A DNA stretch of 37,568 nucleotides, taken from an uncultured Anaerolineales bacterium. GTDB lineage: Bacteria; Chloroflexota; Anaerolineae; Anaerolineales; UBA4823. Made by a program: the position numbers and the translations under genes. The notes beneath the pieces were generated by a model. It was given only the letters and a program-made list of their open reading frames with translations, was not told the origin of the DNA and did not search any database. Below are positions 4,861 to 28,459 of the stretch, piece by piece. The DNA is taken from NCBI GenBank assembly GCA_903872065.1, contig CAIQJJ010000212.1, positions 1 through 37,568 on the forward strand, written 5' to 3'. How positions within the stretch are numbered: the first letter of the stretch is position 1; each line of letters begins with the position of its first letter.

Positions 4861-5280
4861 TTATTTTCTCAGAATTTGGTGCAGCGCATCGTGCAATTCG
4901 GTTGGCAATACAGGTTTCACCAGATAAATCACTGCGCCCATTTCCAGGCCGCGGCGGCGCTCATCCAAGGAACTACATAACAGAATGGGAATAGTTTTGT
5001 GTTTCAAGCTGCGCTGAATCGCCTCAAGCAACTCCCAGCCTTGCCCACCACCCCAATCCGGTTCCATGATCACGGCGCGCACCCCAGTTTGCTGAACCAT
5101 TGCCAGCGCTTCTTGCTTGTTCAAGGTGCCTAACACATCATATTCAGTGCTTAACTCCCGTGAGTACAATTCTAGCGTTGGCAAATCATCTTCAACAATG
5201 ACAATCGTTGGACGAAGATCGGGGGAGCGGCGCTCATGCACGCCATCTACCCCACCTTTACCGAATTTGCCGGTGGGCAT
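4861..5280 (-). CDS. Stand-alone receiver domain with Glu at the phosphoacceptor position
   Basis: 139-residue CheY-like protein with no output domain. The ATG at 5280 was chosen over 5295 because GAGGAG lies 7 nt upstream. The fold elements are in order: beta1 with the acidic patch (IVIVEDD), beta4 LLCSS with the switch Ser, and the conserved Lys in YLVKP. Aligning IMEPDWGGGQGWELL with the usual LLDLMMPGMDGWELL puts Glu, not Asp, at the phosphoacceptor site, with a new Asp two residues on. Asp-to-Glu can mimic phosphorylation, so this is probably a constitutively active or phosphorylation-independent receiver. It lies between the sensor gene and the transporter genes, 3 nt before the ATPase, so it may link sensing to uptake. 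The promoter candidate is at 5370-5398. Confidence 0.85.
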   Translation of the reverse strand: MPTGKFGKGGVDGVHERRSPDLRPTIVIVEDDLPTLELYSRELSTEYDVLGTLNKQEALAMVQQTGVRAVIMEPDWGGGQGWELLEAIQRSLKHKTIPILLCSSLDERRRGLEMGAVIYLVKPVLPTELHDALHQILRK

Positions 5281-5437
5281 ACAGAGACTCCTCAACAGTG
5301 ATCGGGCGGTTGTCTATCTCGCCGCCGCGTCCAGCCAGTCTAATGCGTTTCAGGCTGTCAGATGGTTTTACTATACAAAATTGTAAGGTATCTGTCTTGG
5401 ACAATACACCGAGATTCTTGGATAAAAGAACGATGAA
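5281..5437 (-). promoter_or_regulatory. Promoter candidate and operator-like palindrome upstream of the receiver/transporter genes
   Basis: On the minus strand AAGACA (complement of 5393-5398), a 17-bp spacer and TATAGT (complement of 5370-5375) form a plausible sigma-70-type promoter, giving a leader of about 80 nt. The spacer and -10 contain CTTACAATTTTGTATAG (complement of 5371-5387). This closely resembles the palindrome CTTACAAATTTGTAAG in front of the subtilase gene (26354-26369). A regulator binding here would block the -10. Confidence 0.45.
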
Positions 5438-8400
5438 TCAAGAGCGGCGGTACTCCTGCGGCGAAACGCCCATCTGTTTGCGAAAGACGCGGCTGAAATA
5501 CGCCGGATCGTCAAACGCGACCTGAGAGGCGATCGCTGTGACGCTCAAGGTTGTGGCGCGCAGCAGTTCACAGGCTTTTTGAATTCTCAAACGGCTCAAA
5601 TATTCCCACGGGGTCAGGCCCACTTCCTGGCGAAAAATTTGCGTCAGGTAGTTTTCCGTGACGCCCACCGCGCTGGCAACTGCGGCGCGGGAGAGGGTCT
5701 GTTGGTAATTTTGCTGCAAATAGGCCAGGGCATGCCGCGCCAGGGCGCTGGTGGAACGTGAAAGGGGATTTTCACCATGAAAAGCCTGCTGCAAAATATC
5801 GGCTGTTTCCTCAGTCGTCAGGATATTTTTCGGCTGAAAAGTCACTTGAGCATAATCCAGGCGTTGGATATCTTCAAAGGTCAGCATTTTTCCACTCAGC
5901 ACGACCACCGGCGCGTTTTGCGTCAGCGGCGAGGCGCGTAAAGCTTCAAGCACCTGAAAGCCATTGACCTGAGGCATCATCAGATCGAGCAGCACCAACC
6001 CAGGCGCTTGCTCTGGGGCTTTCACCTGCGCCAACAAACCCAGCGCCTGCGCCCCATCTGCGGCCGTCAAAATCTCAAGATCAAGAAAGACCTGACTCGC
6101 CAGCGATTGGTAGAGCAGGCGCGCCTCAGGATCATCATCTACAATCCAAACCGGACGACAGGAGAGCGAGGGGCGCAAGCCATCAAAAATCTCGCGCAGT
6201 TCGCGGATCGGGACAGGCTTGAGAAGGACGTTGGTCAAAGCGCCGCCCTCTGGGGATGAGGAAGAGGCGGCGCCAGCATACAGCACGAAAGGCAGGCGAG
6301 CGCAGGCTGGCTGCCGGCGCAAACGCTGGATCAGACTCCATTCCCGCGAGGTGGTTTGGCGGGCGGCGGCGGCGGCCATATCCCAAACCAGGGCGACCGG
6401 CTGGGCCTGCTCAAACAAATCTTCGATGCGATCGCCTGGCGCGAGCGAATAAGTTTCTACCGAGACGGAAGATGAAGCGGCAAAAGGAGGAAAATGGCGC
6501 GCCGCGGCGAATGATTTGACTTCTGATAAAACAGGTTTGCTTTGAGGAAACTGCTTCTCACTGGAGATCCACACGATCACCGGCCGTTTCGCGCCGCCGG
6601 CTTCCGCCCCATTCCATGCGGCGGCGCTGACGATTGAAGTCTGCTCGCCGCTGAGATCAGGCAAAGGGAAATAGACGTGAAAAATACTGCCCTGCCCCGG
6701 CTGACTTTGCAATAAAATATCGCCGCCATGCAAGGTAACCAGGCGGCGCGTGATGGTTAGCCCCAGCCCCACCCCCTCGCTGCGACGATGGGAGTAGTCG
6801 CTGGTGACAAATGGCTCAAAAATGCGTTCCTGCTGCTCAATTGGAATACCTGGGCCGGTATCCTGCACCCAAAGATGCAGGTACGGCGGCTCTACCTCCG
6901 CGCCCAGAGCAATCTGGCCGGCAATGGTGAATTTGCTGGCGTTATTGAGCAAATTCAACACAATCTGGCGCAGGCGGATCGGGTCGGCGTGAATCAGCGG
7001 CAGACGTTCGGGAATATCCAACTTCCAGTTCAGCTCTTCACGCGGCGACAAACTATTCACAAAACTCTCGAAGGTTTGCGCAAGCAAGCCGGCCGGCTCA
7101 ACCACTTCCAAAGCCAGGTCCAGCGCCCCGATCTCGGCGCGGGAGAGATCGAGCAGGTCGTTAATAATATGGTAAAGATGTTCGCCGCTCTGCAAAATAT
7201 ATTCCAGGTCGCGGCGCAGCGCGGGCGGCAGTTCCACCTGGTAGGGATTGGGCGCGCCCAACGCCGACTGGCTGTAGCCCATAATGATATTGAGCGGTGT
7301 GCGCAGTTCATGGCTCACATTCGCCAGTAAGCGCGTCTTCAAGCGATCGCCGGCTTCCGCCGCGGCGCGCGCTTGCAGGGCCTCGGCATACAACTCAGCA
7401 TTGCGCATGGCGACGCCCAATTGATCGGCCAACGCCTGCAATCCCACCAAATCCTGGCGCGCATGGCGCATGGGTTGGCGGCTGTGCAGGTCTAGCACCC
7501 CGGAAATGCTTCCACCCCAGTGGATCGGCAGCGCCACGCGCGAGCGCATTTCAGCCCATTCGGGTTCAGGGGAAAAACGGTAGCTGTAACGAGTATCGGG
7601 GATAAAAACTGGGGCGCGGCGCTGCACCACCTGCGCCAACAAGCCGGCCTGGGCCAAAGGAACGGCCTGGGCAGCGCCAGGGCGTATGCCGCTGGAGCCA
7701 TAGGGAGTAAACATCTGCTCCGCCTCGTCCCACAAGAACAAACGCACCGCATCGTAACCGTAGTTGGTACGGATCAGGTTCGCGATTTCATGCGAAAGCT
7801 GAGCGCGATCCAAAATAGCTCCCACGCGGCGGCTGATGGCCATGCTGGTTTCAAGCTGCAGCAGGCGGTCTTGTTCTTGGCGCAGGCTGCCCCCCACCAA
7901 TTGGCTGGGCAAATCGGCAATCTCTTGCAATTTCTTGACACTGCGCTCCAACGCGTTTTCCGCCACAACCCACTCAAACTTGCAAAAGCGATAATTGTTG
8001 ACAATTTTGCCACGCGCAGATTGAAGCGCCAGGTCAACCACCTGGGCGGCGATGTCCACGGGCGAGGTTTCCACCGTTGCGGTCATCCTGCCCTCGGCGA
8101 TTGCCGCCAACGCCAAAGGATCGCCGTTGACGCCAACAATGATTGTCCTGGCGTTCACCAGGCCTAAAGACTGCCCGGCATCGCGCGCCGCCAATGCGAG
8201 CGAGTCAGACAGGCCAAAAATGGCGTCAGGCGCGGTGTCCCAACCGCGCAGCATCATCTTTATACTGGGCAGCGCGTCTTCATAGCGCCAAAACGTAGGG
8301 CAGTGCACGACCGAAATACCGGGAATTTTCGAGAGGACATCATAAAAGCCGGCGACGCGCGAGATGCCCTTATCGCTGCCGGCATCCAACAACCCGCCAA

Positions 8401-8803
8401 CGCAAAGGACGCGCCCCTGCCCGTGCAGCCGCTCAACGATCAATTCCCCCGCCATCCGGCCCACCTCATAAAGCCCGGAGGGCGCGGTCAACAGGGCATG
8501 CTGCAAATGGGTTTCACTCAGGTAAACGATCGGCAGACCGCTGTTCAAAACCTGGTAGACAACCGGATCGGTGAGATCATTGCTGATCAAGACACTTAAA
8601 TCGCAAGCCAGGATTTCCTCCGCCGCGCTTTCGGTGTCTACCAGAGAGAAAGCCCGCTCACTGTTCACGATTTGGAGCGGCACAACCGTCACATCATGTA
8701 AACTGAGCTTGCGCAGCACCGCCTCGCGCATCTGCACCCAGAACGGGTCGCCAGGGAAAACATGCACCCCAATCCGCAGGTGGGATGAGTCGGCTTCTTT
8801 CAT
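5438..8803 (-). CDS. Soluble sugar-binding-domain / GAF / hybrid histidine kinase / receiver / AraC regulator
   Basis: 1121 residues with no signal peptide or TM segment. Domains in order: Peripla_BP_4/LacI-like binding fold (about 8-280: VFPGDPFW, VGGLLDAGSDKG, VGVNGDPLAL); coiled linker; GAF (about 320-470); HisKA with phospho-His 498 (VSHELRTP); HATPase with N-box LNLLNNA (616-622), DTGPGIP (648-654) and GVGLGL (677-682); a degenerate receiver (about 740-870) lacking the acidic pair; a canonical receiver (884-1005: DDD 889-891, Asp940, Ser970, Lys992); and an AraC/XylS double HTH (about 1020-1120). Ligand sensing, a full phosphorelay and DNA binding thus lie in one cytosolic chain. It resembles Bacteroides HTCS regulators without the membrane. 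It starts 12 nt after the Asp-box gene and probably controls this sugar locus. Confidence 0.92.
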   Translation of the reverse strand: MKEADSSHLRIGVHVFPGDPFWVQMREAVLRKLSLHDVTVVPLQIVNSERAFSLVDTESAAEEILACDLSVLISNDLTDPVVYQVLNSGLPIVYLSETHLQHALLTAPSGLYEVGRMAGELIVERLHGQGRVLCVGGLLDAGSDKGISRVAGFYDVLSKIPGISVVHCPTFWRYEDALPSIKMMLRGWDTAPDAIFGLSDSLALAARDAGQSLGLVNARTIIVGVNGDPLALAAIAEGRMTATVETSPVDIAAQVVDLALQSARGKIVNNYRFCKFEWVVAENALERSVKKLQEIADLPSQLVGGSLRQEQDRLLQLETSMAISRRVGAILDRAQLSHEIANLIRTNYGYDAVRLFLWDEAEQMFTPYGSSGIRPGAAQAVPLAQAGLLAQVVQRRAPVFIPDTRYSYRFSPEPEWAEMRSRVALPIHWGGSISGVLDLHSRQPMRHARQDLVGLQALADQLGVAMRNAELYAEALQARAAAEAGDRLKTRLLANVSHELRTPLNIIMGYSQSALGAPNPYQVELPPALRRDLEYILQSGEHLYHIINDLLDLSRAEIGALDLALEVVEPAGLLAQTFESFVNSLSPREELNWKLDIPERLPLIHADPIRLRQIVLNLLNNASKFTIAGQIALGAEVEPPYLHLWVQDTGPGIPIEQQERIFEPFVTSDYSHRRSEGVGLGLTITRRLVTLHGGDILLQSQPGQGSIFHVYFPLPDLSGEQTSIVSAAAWNGAEAGGAKRPVIVWISSEKQFPQSKPVLSEVKSFAAARHFPPFAASSSVSVETYSLAPGDRIEDLFEQAQPVALVWDMAAAAARQTTSREWSLIQRLRRQPACARLPFVLYAGAASSSSPEGGALTNVLLKPVPIRELREIFDGLRPSLSCRPVWIVDDDPEARLLYQSLASQVFLDLEILTAADGAQALGLLAQVKAPEQAPGLVLLDLMMPQVNGFQVLEALRASPLTQNAPVVVLSGKMLTFEDIQRLDYAQVTFQPKNILTTEETADILQQAFHGENPLSRSTSALARHALAYLQQNYQQTLSRAAVASAVGVTENYLTQIFRQEVGLTPWEYLSRLRIQKACELLRATTLSVTAIASQVAFDDPAYFSRVFRKQMGVSPQEYRRS

Positions 8804-22285: not shown

Positions 22286-23617
22286 TCATATCTCTTCCAT
22301 CCCGGCGGCTTTCCAGGCGGTGAGCAGCTCGCGGTTGTAGGAAACTTGCTCAAAAAAGTTGCGGCGGGCGATCTCGTCGGTGATGCTGGCGGCGCGAGCT
22401 TTGAGTTGGGCGCAGCCGGCGCGCAGCATTTGCGCGGCGCGATCATCGCGCGCGGCGCTCAAGGTCAAGAAACAATTCAGATAGACGCGCGCCGGCTCAT
22501 CGGCTCCATCGAGCGCGCCGCCCGACGCCAGGTAATCCAGGATATCATTGGTGTGCTGTTTTGCTTCATTCAAATCGCCTTGCGCCAACAAGACGCGCGC
22601 CAACCCGGCCCCCGGCTCTGCTGCCAGCGCCGGCTGATTGAAAGAACGACGAATCGCCAGCGCGCTGCGATAGACGCGAACCGCCTGCGCCAATTCGCCT
22701 TTCTCCCATAAACTATGCCCCATAAAAGTCAACGCCCAGGCCTCACTGTTTTGATCGCCGCTCTGGCGCGCCAGTTCAAGCGCCTGACGTGTATACAAAA
22801 GCGCCGCCTCGGCATCGCCCAGAGCGCTGGCGCAGGAGCTCAGGTTGATCAAGGCATTGGTCTCTACGAAACGGTCGTTGATCTCGCGCGTCAGGTAGAG
22901 AGTGCGCTCAAGATAAACGCGCGCCCGACCATAAGCGCCCAGCATGCTGGCCACCCAACCTAAATTGACCAGCACAATCGCTTCTCCGCGCCGCTGCCCC
23001 ACTTTTTGAGTCAGTTGCAAGGCTTCTTCATAATATCCCCAGGCCGCATCAAAATTGCCCATCTGTCCTGCCACCATACCCAGGTTGCTCAAAGGCATGG
23101 CCAGTTTGGCCAGGTTGCTGGTTTCTTTAAAGATGGACAAAGCCTGCTCAAAATAGCGGATCGATGCGGGAAGATTCTGCTCTTCCAACATAATCATACC
23201 CAGGGTATTTAATAAGCCGGCCTCCACCCCCCGATTCTGCTCGCGGCGGGCGATCACCAGCCCTTGTTCGCAATATGCCACAGCCTGGGAATAATGCCCC
23301 AAACGCACCGAAGCCTGCGCCAGGAGGCCCGCGGCTTGCAAGCTAATCACATCATCGCCGCGCGCATGAGCCGATTCAAACACCGCATCCATCAAATGCA
23401 CCACCTGGGCATACTCTCCGCCAGTCTGCAAACTATTGGCGCGGCGCACCCGCGCGGTCGCCATCTTGGCCTCATCTCGCAAGGCGGCGGCAATCGCCTG
23501 CAACTGCTCGATATCTTGCAGCACCGCTTCCCGCTTCCCAGCGATCGTCAAAACATTCTCGCGCGCCAGCAAAAGTTGGTAGCGCCCTTCAAGATCGGTT
23601 TCGGGGGTGCGCTTCAA
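22286..23617 (-). CDS. TPR-repeat C-terminal part of a frameshifted cyclase/AAA/TPR protein
   Basis: 443 residues of tetratricopeptide-like helices. TPR signatures recur about every 40 residues, e.g. AGLLNTLGMIMLEEQNLPASIRYFEQALSIF, SNLGMVAGQMGNFDAAWGYYEEAL, and VNLGWVASMLGAYGRARVYLERTL. Such superhelices bind partner proteins. The annotated ATG probably is not the true start: reading the same frame upstream of 23617 gives VYLRLAGDAARDYFENAQAEDYYTRALKRTPETD, which continues the preceding protein (23614-26256) and is the expected linker in this family. The two are therefore one gene of about 1320 residues broken by one missing base near 23697-23705. It ends 4 nt before a hairpin terminator. 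Confidence 0.85.
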   Translation of the reverse strand: MKRTPETDLEGRYQLLLARENVLTIAGKREAVLQDIEQLQAIAAALRDEAKMATARVRRANSLQTGGEYAQVVHLMDAVFESAHARGDDVISLQAAGLLAQASVRLGHYSQAVAYCEQGLVIARREQNRGVEAGLLNTLGMIMLEEQNLPASIRYFEQALSIFKETSNLAKLAMPLSNLGMVAGQMGNFDAAWGYYEEALQLTQKVGQRRGEAIVLVNLGWVASMLGAYGRARVYLERTLYLTREINDRFVETNALINLSSCASALGDAEAALLYTRQALELARQSGDQNSEAWALTFMGHSLWEKGELAQAVRVYRSALAIRRSFNQPALAAEPGAGLARVLLAQGDLNEAKQHTNDILDYLASGGALDGADEPARVYLNCFLTLSAARDDRAAQMLRAGCAQLKARAASITDEIARRNFFEQVSYNRELLTAWKAAGMEEI

Positions 23618-26256
23618 GGCGCGCGTGTAATAATCTTCGGCCTGCGCGTTCTCAAAATAATCGCGCGCCGCGTCGCCAGCCAGGCGCAGGTAGACCGCGC
23701 CTTCTCATTCAGACTGGCGCGCTCGGCATGATAAGCCAGTTCATCGTAATGGATGCTCAGATCGCCGGCGTAAAGCTGTTCGATCGAGACCACCGCCAGA
23801 GTATGCAGCTCACGCTGCCGGGCGCGCAACTGCATTGAGTACGCCGCATCGCGCATCAAGGCGTGTTGAAAACTGTAGTGAGCATCCGTCCGCGGCATCC
23901 AGATTTCCGCCGTCTCAGCCTGGCTAATTGCCGAAGAAATCAGCGTGTCATCCAGCATTTTGCTCAAGAGCCTGACCTCGAACTCACGCCCCAAAACCGC
24001 CGCCGACTGGACGACGTTTTTCACTTCTTGCTTCAACTGATCCAGGCGCGCCACCAACAGCGATTGGATATCCGTTGAGAGCAAATCCACCTGATCCGAA
24101 TGGATGATATTAAAAAGCCCATTTTGCTGTTCGAGCAGCTTGTTTTCTTGCAGATAGCGCAGCGCTTGCTCGACAAAGAACGGGTTTCCATCGGCGCGCT
24201 GCGCCAGGAAATCCACCAACGCCCCTGAGACCGGCGCGCCGAGCAGTTCAAGCGCCATCTGTTCGAGCGAACGCCGCTCCAGGCCCTTCAGGGTCAATTC
24301 GCGCGCCGGGAAATTGCCCAGGAACGGGAAGGCTTCTCCTTCCAGGCGAGAAGTGGCCAGGATCGCAATGGGATAAGGGCATGAGATGTCCAAATGCAGA
24401 CTGCGCGTAAAGTAGGGCAAGAACGCGCGCGAATCTTGATCCAGCCAGTGAGCATCCTCGATCAGCAAAATCAAGGGGTTGCGCAGGCTTTCGCAGCGCA
24501 GCAAAACACTCAAGGCGATAAAGGTATTTTCGTAGCGTCCTTTTGCATCGAGATGTTCATATAACGAGTCTTCCCAAGTAAGATTGAGCAAAGCGCCCAA
24601 CACCGAATTGGTGCGCAGCAGTTCAGCGCGCAGTTCCTCATCGGGCGTAATGCTGACAAGTTGATTGATCCGGCAAAAGAAAATATCGCGCGGGTCTTCG
24701 ACGCTGGCGGCGTTGGCCAGACCGGCCCAATTTTTAAGCCAATAGCGGAAGGGATTGAACGGCTGGCGGATGATCTCGTCCGTCTGGCAGATCGCCCACA
24801 CCACCTGCCCATCGGCAAAGAGGGGCGAATCCATGAATTCATGCACCAGGCGGCTTTTGCCAACGCCGGCGTCGCCCTTGATCAGCAGGCTGCCGGCGGG
24901 CTGCCCGCGCCACAATGGAGCGACAAATTCTTTCAAAAGCGTCAATTCTTGCTCGCGGCCCTCAAATGCGCCGCGAAAAACCTGTTCAGCCATGTCCTTA
25001 CGGCTGAACAGGCGATAGACCCTCTGCTTTTCAGCAAAACCCTTGAACTGCCTCTCCTCCGGTTTATCCAGGTGAAAATCGGCTTCGATGCGCTGCGCGA
25101 CTTCACCATCCACCCAAATTTCGCCCGGCGCAGCCGATTTCATCATGCGTGCGGCAAGCGAGATGCCCCATCCATAGCCGGTGTAATCCTCCCGCAGGGC
25201 AGAGCCGATAAAGCCGGCGTATTGGTGACGGTAACTCACGCCAGCGGTGAAAAGAATTTTTCTCTCATGGCGCAGTTCGAGGAGAAAATTCAAGGCGCGT
25301 TCGATGTCGTTCTCATACGCCACAGGCGCGCCCCAAAAGATGAGCAAATTTGCCCCCTTATCGCCAAAATCAGGCCGCAGGAAGAATCCACCGTAACGAT
25401 CTTGCAGTTCAAACACGGCGCGCATCAGTTCTGCCACCTGATCGGCCGGCTCGCCGCCAGGCGCGTCGCTGCTCAACCGGGGGTCAGTGGGCAGATCAAT
25501 GAACACATTCACCAATGGACGGAACTCGCCCATAAAGGGGCTGTTGACGATTGCTGGCGGGAAAAAAGCAGCGATATGGCGGGCTGCAGGGATATCCAGA
25601 ACGGGCAAAGCCAAGCCTGGCAAAGCCGCTTCTGAGCGGGATAAATGAAAAAATTCGCCAGCCAATTCCCCATCCACACGAGACTTCACTGCCTGATAAA
25701 ACGGCCTATCCAACCAGGTCTCGCCGGGTTTGGCGCAATGTTCCGCATGGGCTGAGGCGTCAATCGCCGCGCCGCGAAAGCCAAAAGTCGCTTTGCTTTG
25801 ATTGACGGAGCGGAAGATCTCCCAGGTCACCTCGCCCAGGGATAAACCGATTTTGACCGAGACAGGGAAATCGCCCAGGGGGGTGGACTGAGTCGGATGC
25901 TGCGCAAAATGGTTCTGGATAGCGAGGGCGGCGGAAAGACAGCGCCGCGCGCAGGCTTCTGCAATATCGAGAGCCGCGTCCGCTGGATCAGGCAGAAAGA
26001 CGGCGGTAATGGCGTCGCCGGCGTAGCCCACCACAAAGCCCCCTTGGACATAAACGTCTTGCACCAACGGCGCGAAGACCGCTTGCATCACCGAAGCCAA
26101 CAATTCATCGGAAACGTAACGCATTTGTTTCGCCAAAACATCCGACATTTTGGAAAAGCCGGACAGGTCAGCAAACATGGTCGCGGCAAATAGTTTCCCC
26201 TGCTGCTCGCCGTGATCGAATCTTTCGAGAATAAAGGTAGGGACAAGGTGACGCAT
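23614..26256 (-). CDS. Class III adenylate/guanylate cyclase-like / AAA ATPase protein (N-terminal part, frameshifted)
   Basis: About 880 residues, soluble. In numbering from an upstream TTG at 26265: a cyclase homology domain at about 25-200 with both metal-site elements (FADLSGF, Asp33; GYAGDAI, Asp84), a second, degenerate CHD at about 250-415 (GDKGANLLIFWG, YTGYGWGISLAARMM), then an AAA/STAND ATPase with Walker A GDAGVGKSR (464-472) and Walker B LLIEDAHWLD. The last 25 residues (RSTCAWLATRRAIILRTRRP...) are out-of-frame sequence; after EKA the correct frame leads into the TPR part at 22286-23617. ATG 26256 is preferred to TTG 26265. No SD is present; TATAAT lies 8 nt before the ATG, suggesting a leaderless mRNA. 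Whether it makes cAMP is not known. Confidence 0.88.
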   Translation of the reverse strand: MRHLVPTFILERFDHGEQQGKLFAATMFADLSGFSKMSDVLAKQMRYVSDELLASVMQAVFAPLVQDVYVQGGFVVGYAGDAITAVFLPDPADAALDIAEACARRCLSAALAIQNHFAQHPTQSTPLGDFPVSVKIGLSLGEVTWEIFRSVNQSKATFGFRGAAIDASAHAEHCAKPGETWLDRPFYQAVKSRVDGELAGEFFHLSRSEAALPGLALPVLDIPAARHIAAFFPPAIVNSPFMGEFRPLVNVFIDLPTDPRLSSDAPGGEPADQVAELMRAVFELQDRYGGFFLRPDFGDKGANLLIFWGAPVAYENDIERALNFLLELRHERKILFTAGVSYRHQYAGFIGSALREDYTGYGWGISLAARMMKSAAPGEIWVDGEVAQRIEADFHLDKPEERQFKGFAEKQRVYRLFSRKDMAEQVFRGAFEGREQELTLLKEFVAPLWRGQPAGSLLIKGDAGVGKSRLVHEFMDSPLFADGQVVWAICQTDEIIRQPFNPFRYWLKNWAGLANAASVEDPRDIFFCRINQLVSITPDEELRAELLRTNSVLGALLNLTWEDSLYEHLDAKGRYENTFIALSVLLRCESLRNPLILLIEDAHWLDQDSRAFLPYFTRSLHLDISCPYPIAILATSRLEGEAFPFLGNFPARELTLKGLERRSLEQMALELLGAPVSGALVDFLAQRADGNPFFVEQALRYLQENKLLEQQNGLFNIIHSDQVDLLSTDIQSLLVARLDQLKQEVKNVVQSAAVLGREFEVRLLSKMLDDTLISSAISQAETAEIWMPRTDAHYSFQHALMRDAAYSMQLRARQRELHTLAVVSIEQLYAGDLSIHYDELAYHAERASLNEKARSTCAWLATRRAIILRTRRPKIITRAP

Positions 26257-26264
26257 GGATAACA

Positions 26265-26270
26265 ATTATA
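26265..26270 (-). promoter_or_regulatory. -10 box (TATAAT) for a possibly leaderless cyclase transcript
   Basis: A perfect TATAAT on the minus strand ends 8 nt before the ATG at 26256, so transcription would start at or next to the start codon. A TTGATC -35-like hexamer lies upstream but at a long spacing (about 19). No SD-like sequence lies between. Confidence 0.4.
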
Positions 26271-26315
26271 CCAACGTCTCTGAAACGCTGATCAAAAAAA
26301 TGTTTACGCAAATGG

Positions 26316-26344
26316 TTGACAAATCAGGCTTAATGGCTTTTAAT
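26316..26344 (+). promoter_or_regulatory. Promoter of the subtilase gene
   Basis: TTGACA (26316-26321), a 17-bp spacer and TTTAAT (26339-26344) match a housekeeping promoter at 11 of 12 positions. Transcription should start near 26351, leaving a leader of about 130 nt before the subtilase ATG. Confidence 0.7.
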
Positions 26345-26353
26345 TAGGCGCAA

Positions 26354-26409
26354 CTTACAAATTTGTAAGGCTAGCAGTGCAGCAAACAACATCCTTACAA
26401 ATCTGTCAG
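26354..26409 (+). promoter_or_regulatory. Paired palindromes in the subtilase leader (operators or alternative hairpins)
   Basis: CTTACAAATTTGTAAG (26354-26369) is a perfect 16-bp palindrome at the expected transcription start. A second copy, CTTACAAATCTGTCAG (26394-26409), matches it at 14 of 16 positions and is displaced by exactly 40 bp. In RNA, ATTTGTAAGG (26361-26370) can also pair fully with CCTTACAAAT (26393-26402), excluding the first palindrome's own hairpin. Confidence 0.55.
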
Positions 26410-26483
26410 CCCCATACAAAATGTCCAGTCGGTACCAACTCTCAGCCGAGAGGCAATCAAATCCAAATTCGGAGGAACAAACG

Positions 26484-28397
26484 ATGAAACGATTTTCTGT
26501 GTTATCCCTGGTCTTGATCATCAGTCTGGCTTTCAGCTTGCTGGCCAACCTGCCAGCCAACGCCGGACAGGGCAACGACAAAGTGCGCATCATGGTTCAA
26601 TTTACGCCCGGGCACAAAGCTGATGCTGAAAAAGCGTTGAACGGCGTGGGGGCGGAATTCCACTACACATTTGATGAACTGAATACTTTTGTTGTCTCTG
26701 TGCCAGCCCAGGCGGTGAACGGGCTAGAACACAATCCCAATGTTGCTTTCATCGAAGAAGATGTTGAGCGCTACCCGATCAGCATTACCCAATCCCAGAG
26801 CGCCGCGCCGCAGGCAGCCGTCGCAGAGCAGACCGTGCCGTATGGCGTGGATATGGTGCAGGCGCGGGATGTATGGGACACGAATCGCGATGGTACTGTG
26901 GACAGCGGCGCGCCGACCGGCGCGGGCCGTAAAATCTGCATCATCGACTCCGGCTTCTACACTCAGCATGAAGACCTGGTGGGCATTAACGTCACCGGCT
27001 ACAATGGCAACCTGCCCTGGAACCAGGATGGCAGCGGTCACGGCACGCATGTCGCCGGCACCATTGCCGCCGTCAACAACAGCCTGGGTGTGCTAGGCGT
27101 TACCCCCGGCACGGTCAGCATTTATGAAGTGCGTGTCTTCGGGGACGACGGTACATGGGCTTATTCATCTAGCCTGATTGACGCCGCCTACAAGTGCCGC
27201 GACGCCGGCGCCAATATCATCAGCATGAGCCTGGGCGGCGGCCGCTCGAACGTGACCGAGAAGAACGGCTTCGCCACCCTCTACAGCACCAACGGCATTC
27301 TTTCGATCGCCGCGGCGGGCAATGATGGCACGACCGCCTACTCTTACCCGGCTTCCTACGACTCAGTCGTTTCGGTGGCGGCGATTGACAGCAACAAGGC
27401 TGTGGCGAGTTTCTCGCAGTATAACAGCCAGGTCGAACTGGCGGCGCCCGGCGTAGGCGTTCTCAGCACGGTTCCTTACCTGGATCAGACCAGCATGACC
27501 GTCAGTGGGGTAACTTATCCCGCGGGACATATTGAATTTTCAGCCCGCGGCTCGAAGAGCGCCGCCCTGGTCAGCGGCGGCCTGTGCGACAGCGTCGGCT
27601 CTTGGAGCGGCAAGATCGTGCTGTGCGAACGCGGCGTGATCTCCTTCTACGACAAAGTTCACAACGTTGAGCTTGGCGGCGGCGCAGCGGCGGCCATTTA
27701 CAACAATGTCCCCGGCGGATTCGCGGGCACTCTGGGCGATGGCAACACTTCGACCATCATCGGCGTCAGCCTGAGCCAGGAAGACGGTCAGTACCTGGTT
27801 GCCAACCAGCTTGGCCAGACCGCTGCGATTAGCAGCGTCTTCACCCAGCCGGCGACCAATGGCTATGAATATTACGACGGCACCTCGATGGCCACCCCGC
27901 ACGTTTCGGCGGTAGCCGCCCTGGTATGGTCAGCCAAGCCCACCGCCACCAATGCGGAAATCCGCCAGGCGCTGCAGCAGACCGCCCAGGATTTGGGCGC
28001 GGCTGGGCGCGATGTTTACTACGGCTATGGCCTGGTGCAGGCGAAGGCCGCCATCACCGCCCTGACCAGCGTTACCAAGATGTCAGTGAAGGACTTGGAT
28101 GGCGTCGCAGCAGTCAAGAAGACCGGCTGGAGCGCCACCGTCACCATCACGGTGAAAGACGCTAACGGCGTTCTTCTGAGCAATGTGAAGGTGGATGGCA
28201 AGTTTGGGACGACGGCGATCTCCTGCACCACAACCAACGGGCAGTGCAGCGTCACCGCTTCATTCAAGAGCACGGTCACTTCGACCACCTACACTGTGAC
28301 CAACCTGACGGCAAGCGGCTATGTGTACGATAACACAGGGAACAGCGACGTTGAGGGCGACAGCAACGGCACTGCGATTACGGTCAACAAACCCTGA
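26484..28397 (+). CDS. Secreted subtilisin-like serine protease (S8) with PA insertion
   Basis: 637 residues from ATG 26484, chosen for GGAGG about 8 nt upstream and the signal peptide it creates (MKRFSVLSLVLIISLAFSLLANLPANA). An I9-type propeptide follows (VRIMVQFTPGHKADAEK...AFIEEDVE). The catalytic triad is Asp155 (IIDSGF), His186 (GHGTHVAGT) and Ser468 (GTSMATPH), with the oxyanion Asn280 (AAAGND). A protease-associated (PA) domain is inserted between the Asn and Ser regions (about 330-455: GLCDSVGSWSGKIVLCERG). The C-terminus (about 530-637) is a beta-sandwich (MSVKDLDGVAAVKKTGWSATVTITVKD) of bacterial Ig-like type. It should be exported and autoprocessed, digesting extracellular protein. 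Monocistronic: strong promoter upstream, strong terminator after the stop. Confidence 0.95.
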   Translation: MKRFSVLSLVLIISLAFSLLANLPANAGQGNDKVRIMVQFTPGHKADAEKALNGVGAEFHYTFDELNTFVVSVPAQAVNGLEHNPNVAFIEEDVERYPISITQSQSAAPQAAVAEQTVPYGVDMVQARDVWDTNRDGTVDSGAPTGAGRKICIIDSGFYTQHEDLVGINVTGYNGNLPWNQDGSGHGTHVAGTIAAVNNSLGVLGVTPGTVSIYEVRVFGDDGTWAYSSSLIDAAYKCRDAGANIISMSLGGGRSNVTEKNGFATLYSTNGILSIAAAGNDGTTAYSYPASYDSVVSVAAIDSNKAVASFSQYNSQVELAAPGVGVLSTVPYLDQTSMTVSGVTYPAGHIEFSARGSKSAALVSGGLCDSVGSWSGKIVLCERGVISFYDKVHNVELGGGAAAAIYNNVPGGFAGTLGDGNTSTIIGVSLSQEDGQYLVANQLGQTAAISSVFTQPATNGYEYYDGTSMATPHVSAVAALVWSAKPTATNAEIRQALQQTAQDLGAAGRDVYYGYGLVQAKAAITALTSVTKMSVKDLDGVAAVKKTGWSATVTITVKDANGVLLSNVKVDGKFGTTAISCTTTNGQCSVTASFKSTVTSTTYTVTNLTASGYVYDNTGNSDVEGDSNGTAITVNKP

Positions 28398-28419: not shown

Positions 28420-28459
28420 CGCCCCCCGAAAGTATACTTTCGGGGGGCGTTTTCTTTTA
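28420..28459 (+). terminator. Rho-independent terminator of the subtilase gene
   Basis: CGCCCCCCGAAAG (28420-28432) and CTTTCGGGGGGCG (28437-28449) form a perfect 13-bp stem around TATA, followed by TTTTCTTTTAATTT. It lies 22 nt after the subtilase stop. On the minus strand it could also serve manA, which converges on it. Confidence 0.95.

Follow-up and report, generated by a model that had tools for sequence, protein, structure and literature searches.

Why should the leader of a subtilase gene carry a perfect palindrome at its predicted transcription start and a near-copy of it a short distance downstream, and are the two read as DNA or as RNA? The question is raised by a 37,568-nucleotide stretch of DNA from an uncultured Anaerolineales bacterium, the whole of which we refer to as the window. 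Few members of the Anaerolineales have been cultured, so their gene regulation is poorly mapped, and a sequence-defined box marking secreted proteases and exported proteins would provide a handle on extracellular-enzyme control in these organisms. We consider it probable, judging by sequence comparison, that the two palindromes are DNA operators of one dimeric transcription factor serving an order-level regulon rich in secreted and surface proteins. On this computational basis the boxes are candidate operators, and the regulon appears to overlap the c-di-GMP riboswitch regulon.

The features of the locus are collected in Table 1. The subtilase has Peptidase_S8 (Pfam, 4.7e-48), PA and fervidolysin-type prodomain matches, and its N terminus is, by eye, hydrophobic and signal-like. 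Directly 5' of box 1 lies a predicted sigma-70-like promoter with a predicted start near 26351; a promoter scan of 26200-26600 reported none because its rule requires the second base of the -10 element to be A, and in TTTAAT it is T. The sequence-only reading had described a palindrome at the transcription start and a near-copy downstream, and both are present, 88% alike and 40 bp apart from start to start, which is near four helical turns but not exactly four. Box 1, which contains the palindrome, would span about +1 to +20 of the predicted start, with its center at about +11, and box 2 would be centered at about +51. By our own arithmetic, about 0.6 perfect 16-bp palindromes are expected by chance per 37.5 kb; since a single palindrome is therefore weak evidence in a window of this size, we examined whether the sequence recurs.

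Table 1. Positions of the boxes, the subtilase promoter and gene, and associated features (window coordinates unless a locus is named)
Feature	Position	Strand	Basis or remark
-35 element TTGACA, predicted subtilase promoter	26316..26321	+	sequence
-10 element TTTAAT, predicted	26339..26344	+	sequence; 17 bp from -35
Perfect 16-bp palindrome CTTACAAATTTGTAAG	26354-26369		
Near-copy CTTACAAATCTGTCAG	26394-26409		
Box 1, AACTTACAAATTTGTAAGGC	26352..26371		22.6 bits (riboswitch-promoter matrix); 22.0 own genus held out
Box 2, TCCTTACAAATCTGTCAGCC	26392..26411		18.8 bits; 18.1 own genus held out
Third box, ACTATACAAAATTGTAAGGT	5370..5389		18.9 bits; 18.4 own genus held out
Alternative stem, first arm ATTTGTAAGG	26361-26370		
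Alternative stem, loop (22 nt)	26371-26392		
Alternative stem, second arm CCTTACAAAT	26393-26402		
GGAGG, likely ribosome-binding site	26471..26475	+	sequence
Subtilase gene	26484..28397	+	Pfam; N terminus by eye
Intrinsic-terminator-like hairpin and T-rich tail, 3' of subtilase gene	28420..28457	+	by eye
Divergent gene, cyclase-like domain and AAA ATPase	23614..26265	-	Pfam
Response-regulator gene	4861-5295	-	Pfam Response_reg
Histidine-kinase-like frame	5438-8803	-	by eye
Candidate small RNA, about 60 nt	L077:1385-1520	-	
Candidate small RNA, about 60 nt	L078:1385-1520	-	
Candidate small RNA, about 60 nt	L085:1498-1640	+	

A scan of the bacterium's own genome (7.49 Mb) for the 14-bp core, which had been proposed as a check, found it once exactly, with four one-mismatch copies elsewhere. 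Among 41 related genomes, 12 contained CCTTACAANNTTGTAAGG with one mismatch allowed, at 21 forward sites in all (mirror control, 0); in the window's family the count was likewise 21 sites, in 12 of 38 genomes (mirror, 1). The contexts first found by pattern were largely intergenic, and the gene that followed often had a signal-like N terminus; from one listing of box sites, part of the listed sites was fetched. A c-di-GMP-I type riboswitch lies between box and gene both at another subtilase of the window's own genome (L060) and at one of genome G020 (L081), and in genome G042 (L087) the box stands just before a further riboswitch of this type. Because of these riboswitches, the motif search was started from riboswitch promoters.

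Within the family, RF01051 yielded 132 matches (131 above the Rfam cut-off) in 30 of 38 genomes, 26 of which were collapsed as tandems, leaving 106 promoters; 100 of these were fetched and 6 were not. By mismatch counting, a box with at most four mismatches lay within 400 bp in 33 of the 100, compared with 2 of 100 for the mirror and an average of 1.75 for 60 shuffled half-sites. Palindromic expectation-maximization on 89 non-redundant 140-bp upstream regions (11 of the 100 were omitted as redundant) converged on AcCTtACAAatTTGTaAGgT with a log-likelihood of 207, whereas six shuffled sets, with 10 restarts each, gave 33-46; a search without the palindrome constraint found the same motif as ACCTTACAAtTTTGttAGgt (log-likelihood 236). 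No window sequence was used in training; the search settings, a width of 20 and palindromic symmetry, were picked after the window had been seen. Sites of at least 12 bits occur in the last 150 bp of 47 of the 100 riboswitch promoters (mirror, 1) and in 0/98 far-upstream and 0/98 downstream control regions, the remaining 53 promoters having no box at 12 bits. When one genus at a time was left out and restarts were selected by likelihood, 34 of 100 held-out promoters reached 12 bits or more (mirror, 0); with restarts selected by information content, 21 of 100 did so (mirror, 0), and several folds reached other motifs. The fold without genus g13 recovered 1/20 under likelihood selection, where it settled on another motif, and 11/20 under information-content selection. 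As for stringency, 400 kb of a relative, G001, contained no site of at least 16 bits (mirror, 0) and 11 of at least 12 bits (mirror, 9); the OmpR control loci described below included isolated mirror hits scoring 14.5 and 15.3, and 12 bits is not a strict level genome-wide.

Scanned with this matrix, the window contains the three boxes of Table 1 and, as its fourth-best site, one of 10.3 bits, the top mirror-matrix score being 9.7. The third box lies between the histidine-kinase-like frame and the response-regulator gene, upstream of the latter. The window boxes share their sequence with the promoter box of c-di-GMP-I (GEMM) riboswitch genes (RF01051 / RF03167) of the same family. Those genes include subtilases; in contrast, the window subtilase has no riboswitch. 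The idea of a site for a dimeric regulator is supported by computation, insofar as the palindrome matches a consensus derived de novo from riboswitch promoters and is kept before close orthologues.

How well is the box kept? A contig search of genomes found 51 subtilase relatives, mainly in records named Anaerolineales, Anaerolineaceae or Chloroflexi. A site of at least 14 bits lies within 350 bp upstream of 9 of the 51 (mirror, 0/51, maximum 7.8), and the seven relatives with at least 66% identity have best sites of 11.6 to 20.5 bits. The 42 relatives without a box at 14 bits are mostly more distant, several of them with little upstream sequence; four of the 51 loci, scanned separately, had nothing above 6.1 bits, two of these with under 80 bp upstream, and in L345 (G010) the best matrix score was 7.9, that is, no box. 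The relative in cultured Longilinea arvoryzae (L321) likewise shows nothing upstream that exceeds 7.9 bits. The sequence-only reading had named a lack of conservation upstream of orthologous protease genes as the outcome that would count against it: this outcome did not appear among close orthologues, but distant relatives lack the box.

The arrangement of promoter and box is kept as well. TTGACA with 17-bp spacing is found also in L312, L313, L314, L315, L328 and L318, with TTGACA at 16-bp spacing in L322 and TTGACG in L316. Measured from the best predicted start, the box center falls at +9 to +11 in the window and in L312, L313, L314, L315, L316 and L322, and six of the nine relatives with a box of at least 14 bits resemble the window in having a box at +9 to +11 from a TTGACA-type promoter. 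Elsewhere it falls at +15 (L328), about +10 for a weak 11.6-bit site (L318, by eye), -54 (L320), -27 (L325), and -59 or -54 depending on promoter choice (L352, 12.5 bits), and L314 (G005) has degenerate boxes of 13.8 bits at +10 and 18.2 bits at -53. The flanks change among orthologues while the promoter-then-box layout persists, and L313 deviates from the window core at matching positions of its two arms, which preserves the symmetry. An Rfam scan of 11 subtilase loci found the c-di-GMP-I riboswitch only in L315, elsewhere in the locus. L315 also carries a tandem duplication of the promoter and box module, with two TTGACA-17-TTTAAT promoters and boxes at +10/+11.

Which genes lie beside the boxes? 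Among genes adjoining 66 box sites of at least 16 bits, 31/79 are secretion-like by a simple hydrophobicity rule (no signal-peptide predictor was used). The share is lower among background frames, at 39/312 (p 2.6e-7; odds ratio 4.5), and among the remaining frames of those loci, at 37/189 (p 8e-4; odds ratio 2.7); the loci were picked by box pattern and are therefore not an unbiased sample of sites. Many of the first genes after riboswitches likewise have signal-like N termini by eye. Nine of 10 picked subtilase-like riboswitch genes reach the Pfam Peptidase_S8 cut-off (L196 falls just short), and nine of the 10 have a promoter box of at least 12 bits (L166 has none). The box also precedes a PAS-GGDEF gene (L224), a HAMP-HD gene read as HD-GYP-like (L230, where the site lies inside an opposite-strand frame), an alpha-amylase gene (L074), and a gene taken as a secreted metalloprotease from its HExxH motif, without Pfam support (L039). 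The notion of control dedicated to one secreted protease is unsupported because the box is common to many genes, often for secreted proteins. Across L118-L217, riboswitches, often in tandem, lead subtilases with a SYIVQG..GGxVTSxLxxINGVGA-like prodomain and large exported proteins. Three genomes have a candidate small RNA whose predicted start lies, by eye, about 42 bp downstream of a box and whose features include a terminator hairpin and a second, conserved hairpin around CACTnGGGCGAGTG; a 6-phosphogluconate dehydrogenase gene (Pfam) adjoins it in L077 and L085, and an Rfam scan of L077 and L078 gave no match for it.

Is the box more widespread? In a phylum sample of 400 genomes, the window's own order had 17 sites in 11 of 36 genomes (control, 1), compared with 3 sites in 3 of the 364 genomes outside it (control, 4); enrichment is seen only in the window's own order. 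A class-wide link between box and riboswitch was not borne out: a riboswitch search gave 104 matches in 35 of 150 genomes, the window's own included, and when a single locus was taken from each of 29 of the 34 other matching genomes, outside the family, one (L258, 14.7 bits) had a site of at least 12 bits within 200 bp. In L264 and L265 (same order, family f12), riboswitch promoters carry half-sites like CCTT..CAA and TTGTAAGGT, wider apart than in the window's family, which are perhaps a divergent form of the box.

How might such a box act? A dimer centered at +10, over the start region, ordinarily represses, and activation is the usual outcome of a box at -42 or -53. Since box 1 covers about +1 to +20, a protein bound there would most likely repress the subtilase gene, blocking RNA polymerase entry or promoter clearance, and box 2, at +51, could strengthen repression by cooperativity or as a roadblock. 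A box near -53, as in many c-di-GMP-I riboswitch promoters, or at -42, as at the candidate small RNA, would instead favor activation. We posit one dual regulator that would repress at the subtilase promoter and activate from upstream positions; judged by position, repression from +10 and activation from upstream are both probable. We infer that a protein binds the box and that its signal is related to c-di-GMP. We speculate further, as a possibility that we hold only tentatively, that a c-di-GMP-responsive transcription factor recognizes the box, such that secreted-protease and surface-protein genes of the Anaerolineales would be controlled twice, through the DNA box and through riboswitch RNA, with box-only genes such as the window subtilase forming a branch of opposite sign repressed from +10. 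The interest lies in this partnership of a transcription-factor box with a riboswitch, and a box so frequent in the riboswitch promoters of one family makes its regulator findable by pull-down.

What kind of protein could this be? The published operator cores of two OmpR/PhoB response regulators are TTACAAnnTTGTAA for MbrC of Streptococcus mutans (PMC4048456) and ATTACAAnnTTGTAAT for LciR of Legionella (PMC6989116). Box 1 contains TTACAAATTTGTAA and hence the inverted repeat TTACAAnnTTGTAA of such operators as described there. In comparison with them, the window-type box has a core extended towards ACCT...AGGT, belongs to Chloroflexota, and lies before many secreted-protein genes, partly at +10. 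Within the operator reading, a response regulator of the MbrC/LciR kind is a possible but doubtful candidate: the shared core speaks for it, but a protein family cannot be assigned from the core alone, and no box precedes the gene in any of the 50 OmpR-type loci examined, out of 83 matches in five genomes and including 20 of the 23 in the window's genome. In two of these loci (L377 and L405) the contig ends before the promoter. No candidate regulator gene for the box was found in them, and OmpR-type autoregulation was accordingly set aside; in L397 a 12.2-bit site lies just after a regulator gene. Autoregulation is not required of a regulator.

Other families were compared with the box as well. 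A BldD box has the form TNAC-N5-GTNA, with a five-base spacer, and was rejected since the window spacer is six (TTAC-AAATTT-GTAA), and a MerR-type operator would lie between -35 and -10, a rule that the observed box positions do not fit. LuxR-type boxes take the form CT-N12-AG; CTTACAAATTTGTAAG fits this frame, but its core differs. The E. coli EvgA box, an inverted repeat with TACAA...TTGTA, resembles ours, which we treat as a lead only, EvgA being a LuxR/NarL-type regulator of another phylum. The accessible part of PMC4222967 does not contain the EvgA motif. GerE-domain response-regulator genes lie beside sites in L037 and L276. The literature consulted, in which subscription journals were thinly covered, yielded no description of this box.

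Could the two boxes instead be activator sites for an unrecognized promoter further downstream, in the manner of the riboswitch genes? There, the commonest position is indeed near -53 from the riboswitch start: of 73 sites of at least 8 bits, 16 fall at -56..-50 and 11 at -90..-84, the others being spread, and 15 of the 100 promoters contain more than one site at this level. A full reading of L119 puts the end of the nearer box 7 bp upstream of the -35 element. The box that L314 has at -53 besides the one at +10 also suits this explanation. Nonetheless, we think it improbable: box 1 is preceded by a strong TTGACA-17-TTTAAT promoter, the +10 layout recurs in orthologues, and no downstream candidate in the window matches more than 8 of 12 promoter bases, where this promoter matches 11. 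Over all boxes, predicted-start distances fall at +4..+11 in 16/147 cases, compared with 8/319 random positions, and at -52..-49 in 12/147, compared with 10/319; these peaks are modest because the starts are predicted, not mapped, and a further peak at -28 is probably an artifact of the resemblance of TTGTAA to a -35 element.

The sequence-only reading also proposed that the leader RNA folds in one of two mutually exclusive ways, into the hairpin of the first palindrome or into a long stem, and a switch between them could control translation or termination of the protease message. The 10-bp stem with its 22-nt loop can indeed pair as described (Table 1), the first hairpin alone is predicted at -5.1 kcal/mol (z -2.2), the two-copy segment adopts the long stem at -13.0 kcal/mol (z -2.1), and the +10 site lies in the transcribed region, where it might also act as RNA. 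But the whole leader folds no better than expected (z -0.97; 36 of 200 shuffles were equally good), and cross-pairing can arise automatically between two near-identical palindromes. In the window, no Rfam family scores at or above its gathering cut-off, and the c-di-GMP-I aptamer is absent from the subtilase leader. The 40-bp pair is missing from all 11 orthologue leaders checked, which have one box or pairs 63/73 bp apart, and in many riboswitch promoters the box precedes the -35 element and hence would be untranscribed. Because boxes serve upstream of promoters too and orthologues lack the 40-bp pair, the hairpins are most readily explained as a by-product of two palindromes, and we regard an RNA switch as very unlikely.

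Least likely of all, by a small step, is that the boxes shield the message as structural hairpins at its 5' end, or are scattered terminator stems. Palindromes at +1 to +20 can fold and one copy (L051) is terminator-like, but the sequence is conserved beyond its symmetry (mirror controls 0-1) and copies exist upstream of promoters. We return to operators of a dimeric protein as the preferred reading of the subtilase boxes. The terminator-like copy just mentioned (L051/L073, G001:C4) is a perfect box inside a terminator-like stem followed by a T-rich run; it looks like a terminator stem, and thus not every copy is a promoter box. A mobile repeat was likewise considered and rejected, as the flanks of the copies look unrelated by eye except for L069 and L080, which belong to one genome (G037). 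These two are copies of a longer repeat that contains the box, and a transposase-like frame lies, by eye, near L069.
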